DNA of 64,000 nt from Nitrosomonas sp. (GTDB lineage Bacteria > Pseudomonadota > Gammaproteobacteria > Burkholderiales > Nitrosomonadaceae), in NCBI GenBank assembly GCA_024282035.1, contig JAMWZR010000009.1, forward strand, positions 23,814 to 87,813, in the 5' to 3' direction. Below, in pieces: positions 54,841 through 64,000 of this stretch (the first letter of the stretch is position 1; every line of letters begins with the position of its first letter). The notes under the pieces were generated by a model, which saw only the letters and a program-made list of their open reading frames with translations, was not told the DNA's origin and did no database searches. The position numbers and the translations under genes were made by a program.

Positions 54841-54921
54841 AAATATTTTGGTGGTGATTTAGAAAATAGGTTGCGGGTTGCAGCTGGCTGTAAGCAATCC
54901 GTCGATTCTAAGTGATCAATT

Positions 54922-55101
54922 TTATTTTTCTGGCTCGGATTGTCCTTGCTGTTTTTTCCATCGATCGTAACATTCGAGGCCACAGTAATACAGGATGTAA
55001 TCCGTGGCTTTGACACTGGCGGCTTCGGAAATCGGGATTTCCTTAAAACAGACTTCACAGGATACTTTCTCGGGTTCCACGATTTTTTTCTGATCAATCA
55101 T
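54922..55101 (-). CDS. 59-aa DUF3330-like four-cysteine protein
   Basis: ATG 55099-55101 (MIDQKKIVEPEK), stop TAA at 54922-54924; GGAGA lies about nine bases upstream. Four cysteines in two pairs (C15-x2-C18 and C40-x3-C44), with EIPISEAASVKATDYILYYCGLECYDRW, match the DUF3330 pattern of small metal-binding proteins. A longer frame overlaps in another register but is not supported. It precedes the chr operon on the same strand by about 80 bases. Confidence 0.75.
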   Translation of the reverse strand: MIDQKKIVEPEKVSCEVCFKEIPISEAASVKATDYILYYCGLECYDRWKKQQGQSEPEK

Positions 55102-55163
55102 TTCATTATCTCCTGGTGACTTGTATCAGACCGGTATGCTGCTTCGTGCCTCCGCGCTTTCAA

Positions 55164-55709
55164 TCAACGTGGTGGCGGTGGTGGCGGACTACCCGGCGGG
55201 GGTGGGGGGGGAGTGAAATTCACTGGTGGTGAAGAAATCCTGGGTCCGCTGTTAGGGTTAACAGGGGGATCATTGGATATTTTTCCCGATACAGGAACGC
55301 GATGACCTTTTGCATACATGCATTGAATGTAGCTCATGTCGTAGCGTTGCTGATTCACGTATCCCGAGCTGGTTGCAGTGCCGGATCCAATCAGGCCACC
55401 GGCCAGCAAGCCGGTGCCAGCACCAATTGCGGCACCTGTTCCTCCGGCTATGGCTGCACCAGCTGCAGCTCCCAATCCCGTGCCGATGGCTGCACTTTGC
55501 AGACCACTAGATTGTGCTGCCTGTTGAGCTGTCGTGCCGCCCAGCTGCTGTATGGCGTAGTCACGGCACTGGTAGTCATCGAGACGGAACTGCTCGAAGC
55601 TTTTGCCGGAACCAGGCAGAGTCATGACACTAGGTCCACTTGGCAAACTGACGCACGCTGCCAGTAAACCGGTTACGGGAAGTACATACAATCTTTTCAA
55701 GCTCAGCAT
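55164..55709 (-). CDS. Glycine-zipper lipoprotein
   Basis: A 181-aa lipoprotein with lipobox GLLAAC (Cys about residue 19). A conserved-looking FRLDDYQCRDYAIQQLGG segment leads into a long Gly/Ala zipper (about 72-115) able to sit in the outer membrane. A YVNQQRYDMSYIQCMYAKGH segment follows, and the tail is polyproline (PPPPPPGSPPPPPPR). Family members are widespread in proteobacteria with no firm function. Confidence 0.8.
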   Translation of the reverse strand: MLSLKRLYVLPVTGLLAACVSLPSGPSVMTLPGSGKSFEQFRLDDYQCRDYAIQQLGGTTAQQAAQSSGLQSAAIGTGLGAAAGAAIAGGTGAAIGAGTGLLAGGLIGSGTATSSGYVNQQRYDMSYIQCMYAKGHRVPVSGKISNDPPVNPNSGPRISSPPVNFTPPPPPPGSPPPPPPR

Positions 55710-55727
55710 TGGGAATGTCCTCGTTAT

Positions 55728-56126
55728 TTATTGTCCTGGGGGTTGCGGTGCCACTTGCAGCCATCCACCTGGGCAATTTTTGACATAAGGGTAGTAGCCA
55801 TCGGGATTCTGGCAATAGTACCAGTAGTTAGTTTGTGGTTGAGCGGGTTGCACCGGCTGTGCTTGCTGCTGCTGGATATAGACAGGTGGGGTCGTAGGCA
55901 TAACCACAGTGGGTGGGTAAGCGTAAGCCGGGGGATAATAAAACGGATAGCCAAATCCATATCCGTATCCATAGCCACCCAAGCCATACCCGCCATAAAA
56001 ACCCGAGCCGTAATAGCCTAATCCAATGCTCAGGTGGCTATGGCGGTGCCCATGAGCCAAGACTGTGGTGCTCAATATACTTAGAAACAGAGTAAGGGCG
56101 ATATATTTGCAGAAATTGATTTTCAT
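55728..56126 (-). CDS. Secreted Gly/Tyr-rich protein
   Basis: A 132-aa exported protein from ATG 56126 (an in-frame GTG at 56135 is weaker). Signal peptide ending TTVLAHG, then a HRHSH metal-binding-like start, a Gly/Tyr-rich repeat region (YGGYGLGGYGYGYGFGY) and a C-terminal motif YWYYCQNPDGYYPYVKNC with PGGWLQV, seen in many small proteobacterial secreted proteins. It is 18 bases upstream of the glycine-zipper lipoprotein gene, probably one operon. Confidence 0.75.
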   Translation of the reverse strand: MKINFCKYIALTLFLSILSTTVLAHGHRHSHLSIGLGYYGSGFYGGYGLGGYGYGYGFGYPFYYPPAYAYPPTVVMPTTPPVYIQQQQAQPVQPAQPQTNYWYYCQNPDGYYPYVKNCPGGWLQVAPQPPGQ

Positions 56127-56329
56127 GTCAGTCACACTGAATCGTCATGAGTTAAGACTACAGTATTTGACTGATGTCTGCCCACAGAATTCCATTAAGT
56201 CGTAAACATGATCTGCACAGCTTCACTTAACGATTCGTCAATTAATCGAAATGATGTAATGAGTTGACGGCGCTATTACGTGAAGTAACCTGACAATCAA
56301 TGGATTGACATGTCTGAATCAGTAATTAT

Positions 56330-56363
56330 GCTCTTCTGGAAGCAAACATGAATCCGGAAGAGC
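56330..56363 (-). terminator. Hairpin upstream of the orphan 122-aa gene region
   Basis: GCTCTTCTGG (56330-56339) pairs with CCGGAAGAGC (56354-56363) with one G-T wobble. It lies just past the 3' end of the minus-strand gene at 56382 and may terminate it. No T-run is seen. Confidence 0.45.
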
Positions 56364-56381
56364 GGCAAGTTTATTGAGGCA

Positions 56382-56750
56382 TCACAAGGGTGAAAATTGG
56401 GGTATTGTCTTGAGACTCTTGGGTAGCATCGGGATACCGCAGTATTTCAGATAGAGGCAAAGCTGCTTCAAATTGGAATAGGATAGGATTTTCTGTTGAT
56501 CGGAAACCAGCAGAAAGGTCAGGCAGCCTATCGAGCCGGCAGCTTTAGTCAGGGTCACCCGAATCGAGTAGCACAGGGAACCGACATCGTTCTTTGATTC
56601 CAGCGCTTCAAATGAAACGACATGGCCATCTGCGTGGTGCTTGATCAACTCAGAGCGTGTCATGAAGCAAGGTTCGGATTGGGGGTGAGCAACACCAAGG
56701 TTAAATGCTGACTCATGTTTGGAGTCAATATTTTTGTCATTTTCTTTCAT
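56382..56750 (-). CDS. Hypothetical protein, 122 aa
   Basis: Start at 56750 has AGGG eight bases upstream. Polar N-terminus, then a mixed alpha/beta region (SYSIRVTLTKAAGSIGCLTFLLV-like beta strands) and a basic C-terminus. No signal or membrane helix strong enough to call and no recognised family. It is separated from its neighbours by about 250 bases on either side. Confidence 0.5.
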   Translation of the reverse strand: MKENDKNIDSKHESAFNLGVAHPQSEPCFMTRSELIKHHADGHVVSFEALESKNDVGSLCYSIRVTLTKAAGSIGCLTFLLVSDQQKILSYSNLKQLCLYLKYCGIPMLPKSLKTIPQFSPL

Positions 56751-56999
56751 TTGTTTACCCTAAATATAAGCAGTGTATGTGTGATTTGTTCTATCTGAAT
56801 GACAAAACTGGAGGATGTGGAGGATGGTTTGACAATAGGTAGTGTGACGATATCTCATGCAGGCATGATGGAGACGATGAAACAAAATTCAAGTCTGAAA
56901 TAGTTTTGGAACAAAAGTGTGAAGTGGTCATGATCATCAACATAAGTGAGTATTTTTTCTTCGACAGATTTAAACTCGGAGTATGGACAGTCAGATGGG

Positions 57000-57404
57000 C
57001 TATTCCGTTCCACTAGATGGGATGAGTTGCATTTCATTTACCCGTGATTCTGCATTCTCTGCAGTAAAAATCTCCATATCGATTTTTCCGATCAAGCGTA
57101 TGGTCAACTGGACGAAACTCATTTCGTCGCGATCGCCACTACCGGTATGGTGCGAGTAGGGACAGTAAAAGGATTCGGTGATTTCACACAGATAAGTATC
57201 ACCATTCAAGTACCCCTGATCCAATCGAATGGCAATCAATTCACCAAAATCATACAGTTGATCGATGGAACGAAAAAGGAAGGTTTTACTGCCATGTTGA
57301 GTCAGGAAAGTAAAATCGGAATCGTCAATGAAGAAATAAATAAAGGGTTCGAGATCCTGGAAATCTTCTCGAAAATATAAATTGTTAAAAAATGGTATCG
57401 CCAT
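57000..57404 (-). CDS. Hypothetical protein, 134 aa
   Basis: ATG 57404 (MAIPFFNNLYF) has AGGA about nine bases upstream; the frame runs up to 57599 but that part lacks support. Acidic and aromatic-rich soluble protein (EPFIYFFIDDSDFTFLTQHG, IAIRLDQGYLNGDTYLCEITESFYCPYSHH). No recognised family. Confidence 0.5.
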   Translation of the reverse strand: MAIPFFNNLYFREDFQDLEPFIYFFIDDSDFTFLTQHGSKTFLFRSIDQLYDFGELIAIRLDQGYLNGDTYLCEITESFYCPYSHHTGSGDRDEMSFVQLTIRLIGKIDMEIFTAENAESRVNEMQLIPSSGTE

Positions 57405-58046
57405 CGTTAGCATTCCTATCTGAATTCTAATCAACGGCTTGCAACCTATTTTGTTTAGATATGAAAAATGATGTCGAGTCATTTCTGATGTTTTTGCACA
57501 GTTGAACCATTCCAGTTCGTTACGAGACCTGGAATTCATTTGTCCTGGCTCACGACATGTGGCAACCGGATTCGAGATCAGTGGGATCATAGCTTTCAAG
57601 GTGTCCTGGAAAAATAACGGGTGCCGTAAACAGCTAGTACCTGTTAAATCGACGTATGGAATCTGAAAAATACTTGCGACCAGAGATTCGCAAGATTGAT
57701 TGACCTTTGGGTCGGAAAAAAAGCTTAAATTTCACCCGAAGCTACTTATCAATTTTCGGGTTAGGGTTAGGGAAGTAAACTTGGATTGATTAGGAAAACT
57801 TAACTATTTGGGGTTGAAAAAAAACGTAATATTTGAGAAAAATTAAATCAAAATTGTTTTTTTGATACCAGAAAAACCTCCCGCGGGCGGTATCGTACCA
57901 CGCCCATAATAATCGACAAAGCTTTTTTGTGATTCACTGCACTCCGTCAGCGCAAGTTGGACAAAATAGGGTAATTGCCTAAGAGAGAGTGTTTTAGTTC
58001 AGTGTTACATCAAGAAAAACGATGAATGACAGAGAAAGATCAGTAA
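57405..58046. other. Non-coding stretch left of the ssrA element
   Basis: About 640 bases without a supported gene. It contains GGGTTAGGGTTAGGG at 57758-57772 (a chance-level telomere-like repeat), a GATACC...GGTATC inverted pair near 57865-57894, and AT-rich filler. It may include decayed remains of earlier insertions next to the element. Confidence 0.4.
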
Positions 58047-58208
58047 TGGCAAATTTGTATTTTTTGCGCCACAGCCGAGGCCTTTGGAGACCTGCCGAGA
58101 CTAATCGGTTATTTAGTAGACTTGAACTAAGACCCTGTATTATATGGGTCTTAGATGGTCCTGAGTGGTCTGGGTAAGACCGCTTATTGGGACGGCGGGA
58201 ATCGAACC
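58047..58208. repeat. Left direct repeat with displaced tmRNA 3' fragment
   Basis: A copy of the right-end repeat at roughly 90 percent identity by eye. It includes the ribosome site and first codons of a Rep-like frame (TTG start changed to CTG), the CTAAGACCC/GGGTCTTAG hairpin (58127-58135 / 58146-58154) and 18 bases of tmRNA 3' end. A four-base deletion relative to the right copy removes part of the acceptor end. Confidence 0.85.
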
Positions 58209-58693
58209 TTGGTCTCTTTCTGATTTATCAACCATTTATTATTTTCCTGTGACGTTTTTGTGTCATTCCTTTGAATTTCTAATGAATACATAAAAATCAG
58301 TAAATCAGTTTAAACTCATTTAGTTAAAGCAGCAAGAAGTGCAGTTCAAGAACTCCAAGTGAATTGTTGGGGGAATTTGATTTGTATCGCATAACATAAG
58401 TCGATATGTACGTACTAAAACCTGAAACCAAGCTCTGCATTCACCAGAGGACAGTCATTTAGGGCTGTCCTCCAAATCCATGCGCCGCTCATCTTGGGTG
58501 AGAGCGACGCATGGCTCCGGAGGACAGCTTGAGAAAAACCACGTAAGTGGCGTATTGAGCTTTATAAAAAAAGTGATTTTTCTTACAGAAAAATTATTGA
58601 GATACTGCTATTTTAAAATATTGGCTTTTATAATCCCCCATTTTACTTAAACGGGGATATGCAAGAATAATTAGAAAGCCCTATAAGGATAAA
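58209..58693. other. Structured non-coding region inside the element
   Basis: About 485 bases with no gene. It holds the alternative-hairpin array at 58447-58528 (listed separately), a CCAC-GTAA-GTGG hairpin near 58539-58550 and a small ATCCCC/GGGGAT stem before the membrane-protein gene. Probably contains the promoter and 5' region of that gene, and possibly a replication signal. Confidence 0.5.
58447..58528. repeat. Mutually exclusive hairpins / long palindrome
   Basis: GAGGACAG (58447-58454) can pair with CTGTCCTC (58465-58472), but GCTGTCCTCC (58464-58473) can instead pair with GGAGGACAGC (58519-58528). The latter is extended inward by CCATGCG (58478-58484)/CGCATGG (58508-58514) and CGCTC (58486-58490)/GAGCG (58502-58506). 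The middle segment has two competing partners, as in attenuators, or the long form could be a replication origin structure. Confidence 0.8.
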
Positions 58694-59716
58694 ATGATTT
58701 CTAATTTAAATAATTACTTACTTTACCTTTTTCATCGAGTCATAGAAATAATTGTCATTGCAACAACTATGGTAGTTATAACTACTCCAGCGATTAGTGC
58801 TGCCGACTTAATAGATACAAATCAAGTTGATGTTAAAAATGATCTTTTTAAAATACAGACTACATTAGAGTCATTGCAAAAAGACATTCAATTTCTTGAT
58901 AAAAATGCCAATAAGACTGAAATTAAAATAGAGGAAAAGAGTTACTTAATAGAGTTTGCTTCAATCATAGTTTCCATATTTATTGCACTCTTTAGCATAT
59001 GGGCTACTCATCGATATAAAAAGATGCTTACAAAAGAAAATAATGCTGAAAACGATGAACGAAGAAAAATTGATGCAACCAACAAGTTATTGTTAGAGGC
59101 GCAAGTCTGCTTTCAGAATCTACAATCAATAAAAATGAATTATCTTGAGTTAACATCCCATCCAATCGAGCGCTTTTTTTGTATTCCATCAATACTAATG
59201 TATTACCAACCAGTTATTCCAGAGTTTACCAACCTTTACTATTTAGCAAAAACAATCTCGAGATCATCAATCGATCAAACATTGCATAATAATCAGAATA
59301 GTTCGGCTAATATTGCTAATTTAACCAGGATTTTCTCTAAATACAATACTTTGCTTGAAATGTGGAAAATAAGAAATTCATCAAAGCAGTCAATATCAGA
59401 AGAACTTATTTCTGTTTCAGCGAATTTAAACGAATCTGCTAATCAAATAATAGAACACCCTAAATTAGCGCAAGTAATTCACTTAAATGAGGCTGTTTTA
59501 TCATATACAGATGATCTTCTGGAAGATTTTTTGCAACTCCTATTAGAGTTACCAAAAATAGCTGAATCTCATATATCGTCAGAAACTCTAAAAAGTTACA
59601 GCACAATTCTAAAATTTGATTTGAGTGAAGAAAATCGGAGATTGTTTTTAAAAAGAATCTCTGTGGATGAAACTAAATATGAAGAAATAGTTGGTGCAAA
59701 ACCAATATTTAATTGA
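58694..59716 (+). CDS. AT-rich cargo protein with two membrane segments, unknown
   Basis: A 340-aa protein; AAGGA lies five bases before ATG 58694. A hydrophobic N-terminal segment (about 13-36, possible cleavage after SAA) is followed by an acidic coiled-coil-like stretch (about 45-80), a second transmembrane helix (about 84-105, IEFASIIVSIFIALFSIW) with a basic HRYKKML flank, and a helical cytosolic domain of about 230 residues. Base composition is far more AT-rich than the other genes of the element or host, indicating separate origin. No family recognised. Cargo such as superinfection exclusion or defence is one possibility (inference only). Confidence 0.65.
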   Translation: MISNLNNYLLYLFHRVIEIIVIATTMVVITTPAISAADLIDTNQVDVKNDLFKIQTTLESLQKDIQFLDKNANKTEIKIEEKSYLIEFASIIVSIFIALFSIWATHRYKKMLTKENNAENDERRKIDATNKLLLEAQVCFQNLQSIKMNYLELTSHPIERFFCIPSILMYYQPVIPEFTNLYYLAKTISRSSIDQTLHNNQNSSANIANLTRIFSKYNTLLEMWKIRNSSKQSISEELISVSANLNESANQIIEHPKLAQVIHLNEAVLSYTDDLLEDFLQLLLELPKIAESHISSETLKSYSTILKFDLSEENRRLFLKRISVDETKYEEIVGAKPIFN

Positions 59717-59739
59717 AAGATTTATTTTTAATAAAACTA

Positions 59740-59967
59740 CTATAAATAATTACTGATTTCATTCAAGAAAACCTCAATTATTAAATTAATGTAAGTGCTG
59801 TAGTCTCCAGTACCTTGATTTATCCGATCTTTAATCAAGAGGGGAACGGAACGGACTATATGATTAATTACTGTGGAAAAGATAAAATCGGGGCTCGCAG
59901 CTTTTAGATTGTTAGGTTGACATATGGCGATATTTATAAATCGTTTCGTTTTGATTGCGGGATCCAA
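59740..59967 (-). CDS. Possible small ORF overlapping the integrase 3' end
   Basis: A 75-codon frame starting at TTG 59967 in the +1 register of the last integrase codons. It has no clear ribosome site and no recognised domain; the product would be mildly hydrophobic near VINHIVRSVPLLI. It might be real, a degraded integrase extension after a frameshift, or noise. Confidence 0.3.
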   Translation of the reverse strand: MDPAIKTKRFINIAICQPNNLKAASPDFIFSTVINHIVRSVPLLIKDRINQGTGDYSTYINLIIEVFLNEISNYL

Positions 59968-61031
59968 CGCCCATAGACCTTGATAATCATACTCCAGTCT
60001 TCATGCCCCATCTGGCTTGCTACCCACAGGGGGTTTTCACCTCTTGAAAGCAGCATGGATGCGAAGGTGTGGCGGGTCTGGTACGGATTGCGATATTTGA
60101 CGTTGGCTCGCTTGAGTGCAGGAATCCAGACTTTTTTGCGGATCGGTTGATCGTTTGTCCACGGTTGATTGGTGTATGGATCATGGAAAACGGTTTTGTT
60201 GGTTTGTTTGGTGAATGTCTGTTGGTGAAGCAGGGCTTCCTTGGACTGGGGTTGCAGTATGACCTCCCTTTTTCCTGATCTGGTTTTAGTATCTTTCAGT
60301 TGTCCTCTAACATAGGCGTGCCTAACAAATATCCGGTTGTTCTCAAAGTCGATATCCTGCCAACGAAGCGCGATCATTTCAGATGATCTGAGTCCCGAGT
60401 AAAAGGCGAACTGAATCAGGTTTTTGGCCTGGCCAGTGAGTTCATTCAGAATTTTGATTATTTCTTCCTGTGTAAACGGCTCGGGCTCACGGGTTTTGTT
60501 GGGGAGGTTCTTAACTCTTTGCAGTGGGTTCTTGTCGATTGTTTCGTCATGGTATAGCTCATCGAACATTTGACGCAGTGGGATCAGGATATTGCTTTTG
60601 CGTTTGTTGGAGCAGTTGAGTTCTGATAGCCATTCCTTCACTTTGCTCGCGGTCAGCTCTGCAATGGGGAGATCGCCAAAAGTGGGAATCAGATGATGAT
60701 AAATGATGCTGCTGTAGTCTTGTAGCGTGCTTTTCTGCAGTTTTGCTTGATTGCGTTGCAGCCATCTTTTTAGAGCTTCTCCAATGGTGTAGCGATTAGG
60801 ACGGGTTTTGCGGAATACTTGGGCTTTCTTGCTATACGGAAAGTGTCTGGAATAGTCAAAGGTGCCGATGCTGATTTCATACAATATTGCTTGCCGTTTG
60901 AGTATCAGTTCTTTCTGAGCGGCTTTGGTCAATGGAATAGGAATAGTCTCGCGGCAGCGCACACCTTGATAGGTGAAGGCAATCTGGGCGCTATTGCCGC
61001 GGATCGTTATGCCTCGATGCCCTGTATCCAT
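59934..61031 (-). CDS. Tyrosine-type site-specific integrase
   Basis: A phage-type integrase with an N-terminal arm-binding DUF3596-like domain (DTGHRGITIRGNSAQIAFTY), a SAM-like core-binding domain (TIGEALKRWLQRNQ..., LQDYSSIIYHHLIPTFG) and the catalytic domain: Arg in SGLRSSEMIALRW, TRHTFASMLL, GHEDWSM and Tyr in VYGRW. I start it at ATG 61031, within the excisionase end; the frame is open to 61103. It presumably recombines the ssrA 3' end with the element's att site. Confidence 0.92.
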   Translation of the reverse strand: MDTGHRGITIRGNSAQIAFTYQGVRCRETIPIPLTKAAQKELILKRQAILYEISIGTFDYSRHFPYSKKAQVFRKTRPNRYTIGEALKRWLQRNQAKLQKSTLQDYSSIIYHHLIPTFGDLPIAELTASKVKEWLSELNCSNKRKSNILIPLRQMFDELYHDETIDKNPLQRVKNLPNKTREPEPFTQEEIIKILNELTGQAKNLIQFAFYSGLRSSEMIALRWQDIDFENNRIFVRHAYVRGQLKDTKTRSGKREVILQPQSKEALLHQQTFTKQTNKTVFHDPYTNQPWTNDQPIRKKVWIPALKRANVKYRNPYQTRHTFASMLLSRGENPLWVASQMGHEDWSMIIKVYGRWIPQSKRNDL

Positions 61032-61201
61032 GCGTATGCTGCCTTTGTCTTGATGAAGATTCGGCCGTTTGGTGCTTTTACCCAATGAATCTTTTCTATC
61101 CATTGCCCTTTCTTTCTATATTGTCTGATGGCTTCTTCAGTCAATCCTGTGAGTTCGGCAAATTTTTTGATGGTTACCAGCATGTGTTCGGAGTGAGTCA
61201 T
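61007..61201 (-). CDS. Excisionase-like DNA-binding protein
   Basis: A 64-aa protein with a winged-helix excisionase pattern: VTIKKFAELTGLTEEAIRQYRKKGQW then IHWVKAPNGRIFIKTKAAYAWIQG. It overlaps the integrase start by about 25 bases and the upstream 137-aa gene by four. Such proteins steer integrases to excision. Confidence 0.82.
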   Translation of the reverse strand: MTHSEHMLVTIKKFAELTGLTEEAIRQYRKKGQWIEKIHWVKAPNGRIFIKTKAAYAWIQGIEA

Positions 61202-61611
61202 TTTTTCTCCTCCTTGTCGATACCAGCAATATGTTCGGCCACATGGCGCTTTACTTCTTCGTGATCGCCAATCTTGCCTTTATCTGCCACTTTACGTTTT
61301 CCCATGACGACTGCCCAGAAGCTGCCAAGTTTTTCAGTAATGGCATAGCCAACACTTTTTTTCTTGCCCAACTCGGTAATTTCTGGACAGACATCTTTGA
61401 ACTCAACGCCCAGCACTTTCTCATAGCTGCGATAGGTGGCTGGGTTATGGAGTATCTTTAGTACCCGCCAGCCGAAGAATTGCCCTAAGACCAAGGCACC
61501 AAGAGCACTTTCTAGTGTCGTACCGACACCTCGAAACTGCTGCATGTGCTGTAAAATCTTTTGCTCTGTTTCGTCGTTCAGAACAAGTATTTTTTCTGGG
61601 CTGTCTGTCAT
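61198..61611 (-). CDS. Hypothetical element protein, 137 aa
   Basis: It begins MTDSPEKILVLNDETEQKILQ and has a Gly/Leu stretch (TTLESALGALVLGQFFGW) that could be a short membrane or amphipathic helix, then a Lys-rich C-terminus (GKRKVADKGKIGDHEEVKRHVAEH). The stop overlaps the excisionase start (ATGA), so they are coupled. No family recognised. Confidence 0.65.
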   Translation of the reverse strand: MTDSPEKILVLNDETEQKILQHMQQFRGVGTTLESALGALVLGQFFGWRVLKILHNPATYRSYEKVLGVEFKDVCPEITELGKKKSVGYAITEKLGSFWAVVMGKRKVADKGKIGDHEEVKRHVAEHIAGIDKEEKK

Positions 61612-61679
61612 AATAAATAGTAACTCCCATAGTTAATAGTGATGCTGATACTACACTATGGGTTATGGCAGTCAATATG

Positions 61680-61961
61680 TCATTTGTCCTGGTCTTCAAG
61701 AATTTTGACTTGTGCGTAGAACTCCTCTTTGGTGAATTGCCGCATCTCATCATAGAACTTGATAACAATTTCGATTTGATCGTTAAGGGCTAGAACTCCG
61801 CAAATACTGCCGATCTGCTTGATGCTGTATTTCTTTCCGGGCTGGAGCTCGTCTTTCTTGAGTACAGCCGCACAGTAAATCAAGGACACAGCTTCTTCTA
61901 ATGTAAAAGGATTCATGATGTCTATTAGTAGGTCATTTTTAGTGTTGATTCGGATTCCCAT
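61680..61961 (-). CDS. Hypothetical element protein, 78-93 aa
   Basis: Start either ATG 61961, overlapping the rep stop by 23 bases, or ATG 61916 (MNPFTLEEAVSLIY); neither has a clear ribosome site. The body (KKYSIKQIGSICGVLALNDQIEIVIKFYDEMRQFTKEEFYAQVKILEDQ) looks like a small alpha-helical soluble protein. It follows rep directly, so it may act in replication control. No family recognised. Confidence 0.6.
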   Translation of the reverse strand: MGIRINTKNDLLIDIMNPFTLEEAVSLIYCAAVLKKDELQPGKKYSIKQIGSICGVLALNDQIEIVIKFYDEMRQFTKEEFYAQVKILEDQDK

Positions 61962-63651
61962 CGCTAGGCTTTAGACGAAGAAAAGAGTTCGGTACAGTTA
62001 TTGATACAAGTCCAAGAAAACCAGCTTTGTCGAGACATGACGTGCGCTCGGCATGCGCCTCGCTCCGTAATGTCGCGTCTTCGCTGTCATCAGTGAGACG
62101 TGCCCAAACATGTTTGCGGGTACTGTAACGATTTCCTTTCCAAACGATACCGGCAATTTGCAACGATGCAGCATCCCCATATTTTCCAGTGAGTGATGTG
62201 TACACTTCACCAGTTGCCAGATTAAGTTGCTGGCTATTGTCGTAATAGGGTTTGATGGCGTGCTGGCTGCGCGATATACCGTGGCCTCCCATTGCCAGCA
62301 TGTATGCCGCCCAGTCACTGGCAGTTGCCGATTGTCGGATGGTTTCGAGTTCAGTATCGTCGGTTTTGTCGAGATTTCTGAGTTGTCGCCAGACGGTAAC
62401 ACTGGGTCCGCCTATTTGCTGAAACTGGCGGATGCCCCAGGTATTTGCCCAAGCTCTAATGCGTTCTGCAGCACTGGCAGCATCATTGCCATACAAGTCT
62501 TGGTCCAGTTTATAGCCATCGATACCTTTGGAAATGTACTTTGCAATATAGCCGGTAGCCGATCCTTTGCAGGGATCGACGGGTTTGTATATGAAGCGGC
62601 GCTCGCGTGCACCCGGTTCGTTACCGTCATCGAGCAACGCATAGTGACTCATGATGTTGCGTGTAATCTGGCGATGTTGCTCAGGCATGAATAAGAGCAG
62701 GTGCCAATGAGGGGTGCCGTCATGATGCGGTTCGACCACACGAAAACCATAGGGTCTTATGTCCTGTCTGTCGAACTCGGCACGAATGAGGGTCCACAGG
62801 TGCGTTAAGTATTCGTGTGCTTCCAGTGCAGTGGTGCCGTCATGGCGTGGATTGGCTTTTCCGTGGTGCAGGTAAGCATGCATGCGGGAAGGGGTGGTAA
62901 GCGTATAGAACTCACCAACGTGCCCTAGATGTTCGGCAACTAGTTCGAATCCGTGGCAGCGCGTCATTAATTCGGCACGGCGAACGACTGGATTAGATAC
63001 TGAACGTTCGGCTAGGTTTTGCAGGGAGAAAATCTCGCCGTTCTGGTTACTTACGTAGTTCGAGGCCAGATACAACAAGTTGCGTTCCATCTGTTTGCGC
63101 TTAACGTGTACGGTGTAGTCACTGACATAGGTGCCACGTAGGCGGTTGACGAGCTCGAGGTTTCGGGCAATGGCTTCGATCTTGCGTAGGCGCAATATCT
63201 GGACGCGCTGATGCCACCATCGAAAACTACACATGCGGTTCAAGGCGGGTTCGGGGTCATCATTTTTGATAATCGGTGGTTTGATCTGATAGAAGCTGAC
63301 GATACGGCGACAAGCCTCAAAGGCTTCGAGAGGAGACTGTGATCTTTCCCGTGCGGTATTGCATTTACTGGCAAGTTTATTGACGACTGTGCGTAATTCT
63401 TGTTGATCAGCACATAGGTTCAGATCGGCAATTTGGAGCTGGTGGTAAAAGTTCTGCAATTCCTGATTGGCTAGCTCGAAACTTTTACGTTCGGCGGTTC
63501 TGACATAGCGAGAAGCTAAATCACCGGCAAAAGGGGATAGTTCGGTGAAAATATGCTGACGCATGCGGCGACAATTTTCTGTACCGTAAGCAGCAGTGCG
63601 TTCGTCGGCATAAACGACTTGTGGCAAATTTGTGTCATTTTTGTGCCACAA
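61939..63651 (-). CDS. P2 gpA-type HUH rolling-circle replication endonuclease
   Basis: A 570-aa replication initiator. HUH-type metal motif in GTPHWHLLLFMPEQHRQ and the paired catalytic tyrosines in ATGYIAKYISKGIDGY are the hallmarks of phage P2 gene A and relatives, which nick the origin and start single-strand displacement. The best start is TTG 63651, with AAGG six bases upstream, placing the start inside the terminal repeat; ATG 63564 is the alternative and has no ribosome site. Its presence without capsid genes marks the element as a replicating but not self-packaging unit. Confidence 0.88.
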   Translation of the reverse strand: MWHKNDTNLPQVVYADERTAAYGTENCRRMRQHIFTELSPFAGDLASRYVRTAERKSFELANQELQNFYHQLQIADLNLCADQQELRTVVNKLASKCNTARERSQSPLEAFEACRRIVSFYQIKPPIIKNDDPEPALNRMCSFRWWHQRVQILRLRKIEAIARNLELVNRLRGTYVSDYTVHVKRKQMERNLLYLASNYVSNQNGEIFSLQNLAERSVSNPVVRRAELMTRCHGFELVAEHLGHVGEFYTLTTPSRMHAYLHHGKANPRHDGTTALEAHEYLTHLWTLIRAEFDRQDIRPYGFRVVEPHHDGTPHWHLLLFMPEQHRQITRNIMSHYALLDDGNEPGARERRFIYKPVDPCKGSATGYIAKYISKGIDGYKLDQDLYGNDAASAAERIRAWANTWGIRQFQQIGGPSVTVWRQLRNLDKTDDTELETIRQSATASDWAAYMLAMGGHGISRSQHAIKPYYDNSQQLNLATGEVYTSLTGKYGDAASLQIAGIVWKGNRYSTRKHVWARLTDDSEDATLRSEAHAERTSCLDKAGFLGLVSITVPNSFLRLKPSDGNPNQH

Positions 63652-63789
63652 CCGAGGCCTTTGGAGACCTGCCGAGACTAATCGGTTATTGGGGATGCTT
63701 GAACTAAGACCCTGTTTTGTATGGGTCTTAGTTGGTTTTGAGTGGTCTGGGTAAGACCGCTTATTGGTGGAGACGGCGGGAATCGAACC
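63622..63789. repeat. Right direct repeat overlapping the tmRNA 3' end
   Basis: Counterpart of 58047-58208. It contains the Rep start region, a 9-bp perfect hairpin CTAAGACCC (63704-63712)/GGGTCTTAG (63723-63731) that may act as the tmRNA terminator, and the last 25 bases of tmRNA. Confidence 0.85.
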
Positions 63790-64000
63790 CGCGTCCGCAA
63801 GCCCTCTACAGACAGTTCTACATACTTAGCCATATTATTTGATTTGACCTGGCAACCGCCAACTGGCAGGCTGATGACAGGCGAGTCACCTTGCGTTTAA
63901 CGTTCTGCAAAGTGACCCTGCAGAACACGATCCTCGTTAGTGACTCTGCTGTCTGTTGCCAGACCCGGCGTTGAGGCCCACCGGTGCAGAGGCTAGCCGA
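63765..64000 (-). ncRNA. ssrA: tmRNA (ssrA), 3' part; 5' part beyond the window
   Basis: On the minus strand the sequence ends GGTTCGATTCCCGCC-GTCTCCACCA, the tRNA-like T-arm, acceptor strand and CCA of tmRNA, preceded by structured pseudoknot-like sequence. About 236 of roughly 360 bases are inside the window; the tag reading frame and 5' acceptor strand lie outside. The 3' end is intact although an element is integrated next to it. It works with SmpB (26378-26821) to rescue stalled ribosomes. Confidence 0.93.

Follow-up and report, generated by a model that had tools for sequence, protein, structure and literature searches.

In a 64,000-nucleotide stretch of Nitrosomonas sp. DNA (the window), an integrated element of 5,581 bp was located at 58191–63789, flanked by the 3' end of ssrA, the transfer-messenger RNA (tmRNA) gene, and by a distal attachment (att) site. 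It is, with near certainty, an integrative rolling-circle element, and its core genes rep, p93, p137, xis and int recur as a block across the genus. We propose that such elements carry swappable, often defence-like cargo and move most likely in filamentous-phage particles, an explanation that we judge about equally liable to prove right or wrong.

An integrative element inserted at ssrA

From ssrA, the element is ordered rep, p93, p137, xis and int, all on the minus strand, followed by a plus-strand cargo gene and then the distal att. The contig ends within ssrA, so that this integration target keeps its 3' part (63765–64000, minus strand, reaching the end of the window; Rfam RF00023, 103.7 bits, L013 7219–7454, model positions 132–374; L and G numbers denote loci and genomes) and lacks the 5' part. 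An exact 18-bp repeat is present within ssrA at 63772–63789 (proximal att core, GACGGCGGGAATCGAACC) and at 58191–58208 (distal att core, repeating the ssrA end), with a spacing of 5,581 bp. A separate repeat of 135 bp (58056–58190 and 63633–63767) has 90% identity. Only the 18-bp copies are att, which places the mobile unit at about 58209–63789. The terminal direct repeats reported in the first-pass annotation therefore hold for the 18-bp att at ssrA but not for the long 135-bp repeat, which appears from its sequence to derive from another element, now lost, whose Rep-proximal end it represents.

The rep gene (61939–63651, minus strand, TTG start) encodes a gpA-family HUH replication initiator (Phage_GPA PF05840, E 4.5e-80; phrog_91, 'nicking at origin of replication', 4.7e-153), with motifs EPHHDGTPHWH and GYIAKYISK that align with P2 gpA. 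On the same strand lie p93 (61680–61961), a conserved protein below every Pfam cut-off, with an AlphaFold2 (AF2) model too poor to use (pLDDT 46); p137 (61198–61611), a core protein with relatives beside Zot in filamentous prophages; xis (61007–61201), matching excisionase phrogs (best phrog_9668, 1.1e-9); and int (59934–61103), a tyrosine recombinase (Phage_integrase PF00589, 2.5e-19; PF12167, 4.5e-17). Searches with Pfam, PHROGs and tblastn of P2 proteins recognised no capsid, packaging or transfer genes in the unit. The first reading of this DNA, as an ssrA-targeting integrative element with a gpA-type Rep and none of these genes, is thus borne out by PF05840, phrog_91, the Rfam tmRNA match and the 18-bp att.

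Median pairwise ratios of nonsynonymous to synonymous substitution (dN/dS) were 0.11 for Rep (22 sequences, with 2 of 231 pairs saturated and outside the median), 0.10 for p93 (10 sequences, 21 of 45 pairs saturated), 0.07 for p137 (23 sequences, 137 of 253 pairs saturated, the median being that of the other 116), 0.13 for Xis (23 sequences, 32 of 253) and 0.09 for Int (13 sequences, 15 of 78). Rows with a tblastn match running past a stop were dropped.

A predicted P2-type origin inside rep

A predicted double-strand origin, CTTGGACTTGTATCAATAACTGT, lies inside the 3' end of rep (61994–62016, minus strand), with 5 mismatches to the 23-mer at the annotated nick of P2 and with the nick predicted between 62014 and 62013. 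The nick-site motif CTTGGAC(T/C)TGTATCAATAACT(G/A)T was found near the rep 3' end in all 23 of 23 copies, at 5–6 mismatches from the P2 23-mer; the best of 200 Markov sequences used as a control reached 6 mismatches, once. In a codon alignment of 22 Reps, the motif falls within a peak of synonymous conservation at codons 523–560 (z about 3.3). Together with the conserved att ends, this P2-type nick site is consistent with excision and rolling-circle replication as first proposed, in so far as sequence features can indicate them.

The same motif, at 1–3 mismatches from that of P2, ends the Rep genes of nine loci (L055–L063) and of the filamentous phage Dolos. The window family has C as the base following GGA, as do all five Zot-bearing gpA-Rep records, of which four are near-copies; among 59 records with P2 genes this base is G in 55 and C in 3, the motif being absent from one.

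In Rep trees the window family forms one clade, apart from most P2 Reps; this position outside the sampled Reps of canonical P2 phages modifies the P2-type label originally given to this Rep. Its side of the trees also holds Zot-bearing records, L055–L063, L108, L110 and L152 (contigs with P2 tail-gene matches). The trees were made by a quick method and contain long branches, with the P2 rows thinned from 60 to 19 and the window family represented by 11 of 23 and 10 of 23; six long rows and L223 were further omissions from the second tree.

L055–L063 make up a third group with a gpA-type Rep and varied neighbours, several having integrase and AlpA-like genes upstream by our reading. Five are in Nitrosomonas and four in other genomes of the order; the Rep of L059 is truncated, and no P2 structural genes were matched in the fetched flanks.

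The element family in Nitrosomonas

Searching the fetched loci by tblastn with the five core proteins revealed 23 copies of the complete Rep-p93-p137-Xis-Int block in 22 of 85 Nitrosomonas genomes, including the window's own copy and L197, with a split integrase; other copies are contig-cut or decayed. The same syntenic block, which the first-pass annotation had suggested looking for in relatives, is therefore present in 22 complete copies besides the window's, and its recurrence in order is more than chance. Matches to p137 were obtained in 33 of the 85 genomes, some being distant relatives within other elements, and the Rep relatives in named genomes numbered three, all Nitrosomonas.

ARAGORN analysis of the other 22 complete blocks identified, within the stretches fetched, tmRNA in ten, tRNA-Ser(GGA) in three and neither in eight, with L245 outside the scan. 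Element ends were compared in 23 script-oriented elements, namely 22 complete blocks (L245 left out, L017 and L187 being one contig) and the viral contig L222. In 20 of the 23, the proximal att precedes Rep by 138 or 144 bp, and a distal att was found in 19, which span about 4.4 to 8.1 kb; those without one are L203, L206 and L222, which reach a contig or record edge, and L199, which does not. The att core has the shared sequence GGTTCGATTCCCGCC in ssrA insertions and GGTTCGAATCCCGCC in tRNA-Ser insertions.

Both ends are kept across the family. On the Rep side is R2, a conserved structured noncoding region of 131 bp (63639–63769, minus strand) with 85% mean column identity over the 23 elements and a fold z of −4.7; its helices hardly vary, and no covariation support was obtained for them. 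Motifs resembling AATGACACAAAAA and TGATTGATATATCA adjoin the distal att (distal arm region, 58209–58338, minus strand; 19 distal ends compared) and are missing in L191. R2 was also considered as a packaging signal shared with phages and rejected, since clear matches occurred only in window-family loci and L232; it is probably an att arm or regulatory region.

Two divergent arrangements were noted. At L243 7505–9352 (G466) the Rep frame continues into p137 sequence belonging to its C-terminal half; no p93 match intervenes, and the arrangement looks like a deletion fusion. Outside the genus, L232 (G005) has what looks like a tmRNA alongside (from translation only), a p137 relative, xis, a related Int, an R2-like end and no gpA Rep match, together with a TIR-like protein by reading of its translation.

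The genes between int and the distal att vary from copy to copy. In the window this slot (58694–59716, plus strand) encodes a 340-aa protein with hydrophobic segments, as read from the translation, that matches phrog_21267 (1.4e-23) and is below the Pfam cut-off. Defence cargo is clear in L051, with a Drt4-type reverse transcriptase (1.6e-157), and in the decayed copy L054, with a TIR/ThsB-like protein; it is weak in L052, where an 892-aa protein has a NACHT match below cut-off. L053 carries dCTP-deaminase-like proteins, and further small cargo proteins may be toxin–antitoxin pairs, judging from their translations. PADLOC gave no match for the window cargo or that of L017.

p137 relatives in filamentous prophages

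Distant relatives of p137 were found directly 3' of Zot in the prophages L180, L186, L225 and L236–L238. The L180 genes match Zot, a Phage_CRI Rep and a family of minor head proteins; Zot of L186 was identified by PHROGs, and the remaining prophages through tblastn matches to genes of L180 and L186. The same order of Zot and p137 relative is present in viral contig L227 and, if it is circular, in L224, where Zot matches Pfam. The p137 of L244 is 74% identical to that of the window over residues 7–126 by tblastn, or at 93 of 131 aligned residues (71%), and sits between Zot and a gene that we read as pVI-like. Among the 55 Zot places listed in the genus, some of which are pieces of one gene, six lie no more than about 0.7 kb from a p137 relative. 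Genomes G411, G412 and G426 contain sequences of both the window-type element and a p137/Zot inovirus. Across the order, 13 of 399 genomes have a p137-family match, five of them Nitrosomonas.

The protein itself matched no Pfam or PHROG family and no PDB sequence better than E 0.61, and a fold search with its AF2 model (pLDDT 70) returned no match at E <= 0.001. A relationship to the P2 scaffold protein gpO was considered and rejected, having one 30-bit gapped BLAST match and no Pfam match.

At L186 7473–8492, a relative of the window's cargo gene (1.5e-17), split into two frames by a stop, lies beside the p137 relative of the filamentous prophage.

A second capsid-less family and a double-hairpin block

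A p137 relative also occurs in a second capsid-less family, together with a Rep_trans-type Rep, an excisionase-like gene, an integrase and variable cargo. This family occupies at least nine loci (L177, L179, L182, L184, L228, L229, L231, L239 and L242), at tRNA-Met or tRNA-Arg where the site was seen.

Comparison of the phages with the second family by blastn revealed a short noncoding block in common. A regular-expression search defined this block, R1, as 71–74 bp with two hairpins. It was located at nine sites in seven phage loci, after Zot or the accompanying p137 relative, and at nine sites in the second family, preceding the p137 relative. In the alignment 97.5% of cells pair; changes on both sides of the longest stem may reflect a one-base register shift between the groups instead of true covariation, pair 34–60 being the clear case, and relatedness among the sequences is not controlled for in the shuffles. 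The 18 strong matches are the 18 sequences that built the model, and beyond these the model matched only L185 (46 bits) and one further position in L181 (33.6 bits). R1 was not found in L228, L229, L231 or L234, which carry p137-relative and second-kind genes. As a candidate packaging signal, R1 would apply to the second family and not to the window family.

In L225 (1–15711), two filamentous prophages with different Rep and Zot lie in tandem, with a double-hairpin block after each and a p137 relative seen only after the first.

Proposed mode of movement and alternatives

In the proposed pathway, Int would recombine the att core of ~15–18 bp, which is nearly identical between ssrA and tRNA-Ser at their T-arm ends. 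Xis would reverse integration; both roles are suggested by the protein families and conserved ends. The gpA-type Rep would then nick the excised circle at the P2-type origin inside the rep 3' end, generating single-stranded circles. Because no capsid or transfer genes were recognised, the element would most likely travel in helper particles. Filamentous phages export single-stranded circles; inoviruses are the best-supported candidate on account of this export, their commonness in the genus and the p137-family genes in common, and we infer that a filamentous phage is the most likely of several possible helpers. The Zot family (PF05707) was detected in 38 of the 85 Nitrosomonas genomes, although it also matches 4 of 14 control genomes and its weakest matches may not be phage.

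The second family lends itself to a broader and more tentative proposal, which we think somewhat doubtful as a whole: a guild of integrase-bearing filamentous-phage satellites, in which at least two unrelated replicons (gpA Rep and Rep_trans Rep) would have converged on a p137-family protein and antiviral cargo and would leave in filamentous particles, with one lineage mimicking the structured end-of-operon signal of the phage and p137 acting as a new assembly or packaging factor. Co-occurrence of the second family with Zot was 8 of 11 genomes against 4.9 expected (two-sided p 0.057), three of the 11 (G399, G436 and G448) having been assigned by score alone.

Several observations weigh against a filamentous helper for the window family. 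Its co-occurrence with Zot over the 85 genomes was 12 of 27 against 12.1 expected (p 1.0), in hand-compiled lists that count the fused G466 among the 27 but not the decayed G214 or the phage-borne G441. The window genome has no Zot match and no p137-family match besides its own, and 49 of the 55 Zot places lack a nearby p137 relative. R1 was found in none of the 32 window-family loci searched, nor in inovirus loci L224, L227, L244, L250 and L253 or gpA-Rep inovirus loci L050, L098, L101, L103 and L105. No other cis signal common to the window family and the phages emerged, as blastn gave only p137 and R2 was not in inovirus loci. The GGAC subtype of the origin is not exclusive to inoviruses: among 26 records with neither Zot nor P2 matches, the base was G in 20 and C in five, one lacking the motif. 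The Rep trees leave the sister group of the window family undecided. Finally, since p137 has no assigned role and no family, PDB or fold match, it could be a regulator or immunity gene. Elements may outlive their helpers, yet the missing co-occurrence with Zot counts against a filamentous one.

Of the alternatives, the most serious, though unlikely, is a satellite of a tailed phage, like the tmRNA islands described in PMC12595487, with p137 being passed between small elements as a gene for regulation or immunity. In the part of that report available, the elements downstream of tmRNA carry intY, alpA, an inovirus Gp2-like protein and defence genes with no recognised transfer genes, and I55 was moved by a jumbo phage; here, a window-family block lies at the end of an 89-kb contig from a viral collection (L222). 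No tailed-phage packaging gene was found in the unit, however, and the P2-type capsid was matched in none of the 85 genomes (a survey that did not extend to other tailed phages or to cos/pac signals).

The element could also be an integrative plasmid without a dedicated helper, replicating by rolling circle and spread by natural transformation or passive transduction. Such a plasmid would suit both the lack of a helper-related cis signal for the window family and the lack of Zot co-occurrence, but leaves the p137 relatives beside Zot in several filamentous prophages unexplained, and we regard it as improbable. We consider quite improbable an integrative mobilisable element, its HUH Rep or an unseen origin of transfer (oriT) being served by a helper conjugative element. 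HUH enzymes can serve as relaxases, but this Rep is of the phage gpA type with a P2-like origin inside rep, and no relaxase was among the Pfam matches of the unit, in which no oriT search was made.

A deleted P2-like prophage, to which the gpA-type Rep and the P2-type nick site within its gene might point, was rejected as having almost no chance of being correct: the same capsid-less block with conserved ends is present in 22 genomes at low dN/dS, tblastn of P2 proteins found no gene for capsid, portal, terminase or tail in this unit or in the units of relatives, where the first-pass annotation had named capsid or terminase genes as the finding that would overturn its reading, and the P2 capsid family (PF05125) was matched in 0 of 85 Nitrosomonas genomes.

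Comparison with described elements

The general kind of element, with integrase, excisionase, rolling-circle protein and defence cargo at tRNA or tmRNA genes, is already in print, as the available parts of PMC12458937 and PMC12595487 indicate. A literature search, in which subscription journals were largely missing, gave no published description that we recognised for the Rep-p93-p137-Xis-Int gene set. The gene combination, at first taken to be undescribed, thus stands as such for the particular set but not for the kind.

PMC12458937, as far as its accessible text goes, describes satellite phage-like mobile genetic elements with integrase, excisionase, HUH rolling-circle endonuclease and defence islands, with E. 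coli examples. In common with them, the window element has direct repeats (16–20 nt at the tRNA 3' end there, 18 bp at tmRNA here) and the combination of Int, Xis and HUH endonuclease, with few phage-derived proteins; as to defence cargo, some relatives in the window family resemble them (clearly L051 and L054, weakly L052), whereas the window's own cargo has no PADLOC match. The elements of that report, in the portion seen, differ in their large defence payloads and moron modules, the window family having 4.4–8.1 kb with p93 and p137; Rep families were not compared. The Pseudomonas islands I23, I44 and I55 (PMC12595487) likewise lie just downstream of tmRNA and, in what is accessible of that source, have a tyrosine integrase, an inovirus Gp2-like protein, defence genes and no recognised transfer genes. 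They differ in their shared region of ~18 kb, AlpA, YqaJ and RadC, where the window element has gpA Rep, p93 and p137.

To our knowledge, described phage satellites mostly parasitise tailed phages, and satellites of filamentous phages, such as RS1, are few. RS1 differs from the window element, with its own Int/Xis and gpA Rep, in gene content and in XerCD-based integration. The window element would resemble this CTXphi satellite in having a filamentous helper and rolling-circle replication, as presented in the part of PMC11389934 consulted. Judged by RS1-like features, it lacks capsid and morphogenesis genes and has a gene, p137, in common with the candidate helpers; a shared cis packaging signal and co-occurrence with the candidate helper, which would also be expected of such a satellite, were not found for the phages compared. 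Shewanella phage Dolos (OP867012, filed under Inoviridae) has a gpA-type Rep 33–37% identical to that of the window family and an origin, CTTGGACTCGTGTCAATAACTGT, of the same GGAC subtype, but differs in encoding Zot-like and minor head proteins and in lacking an annotated integrase. PMC6813254 lists Nitrosomonas among inovirus hosts and, in the text available, does not mention satellites.

P4-like satellites are similar to the window element in having integrase and excisionase, and a variable defence slot is described for them in the accessible part of PMC9122126. P4 alpha, Sid, Psu, Delta and epsilon had no match in the window at E 1e-2.

Found in roughly a quarter to a third of the 85 Nitrosomonas genomes, a compact family that is driven by its integrase and swaps its cargo would show by what route antiviral genes travel in nitrifiers. 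It would also offer a minimal replicon (4–8 kb) for study, and p137 and the double-hairpin block as testable handles on filamentous-phage packaging. Even without a helper, the P2-type origin within the gene and the empty site allow direct tests of excision and nicking.

An older element end and further features

A relic adjoins the distal att outside the mobile unit (58047–58190, minus strand). It matches the R2 model (58062–58192, 141.2 bits) and is read as the Rep-proximal end of the older lost element. A similar relic is present in L260, a relative with 84% identity over 3 kb of the left flank, in which ssrA is followed by the relic and then by the same host DNA, the element being absent; at this element-free site, sequences corresponding to window 54892–57938 and 63623–64000 are separated by 36 bp. 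As a relic of this type separates ssrA from host DNA in L260, where the element is absent, the ancestor probably already carried a decayed end of the older element when the present one inserted.

Between the host flank and the relic, the window has a dispersed repeat of ~97 bp (57944–58040) that is not there in L260. It was matched in many Nitrosomonas genomes and at no fewer than three places in the window genome, three candidates having been scored per genome.

A conserved intergenic region upstream of p137 (61612–61679, minus strand) is promoter- or operator-like in an alignment of 23 elements. Upstream of the cargo gene is a strong hairpin (58464–58528), which was set aside as a family-wide packaging signal, being matched only in the window and in L051. 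Elsewhere in the window genome, two short DNA matches to the element (L014 and L015, G000:C25 54288–56545) possibly represent a decayed relative.

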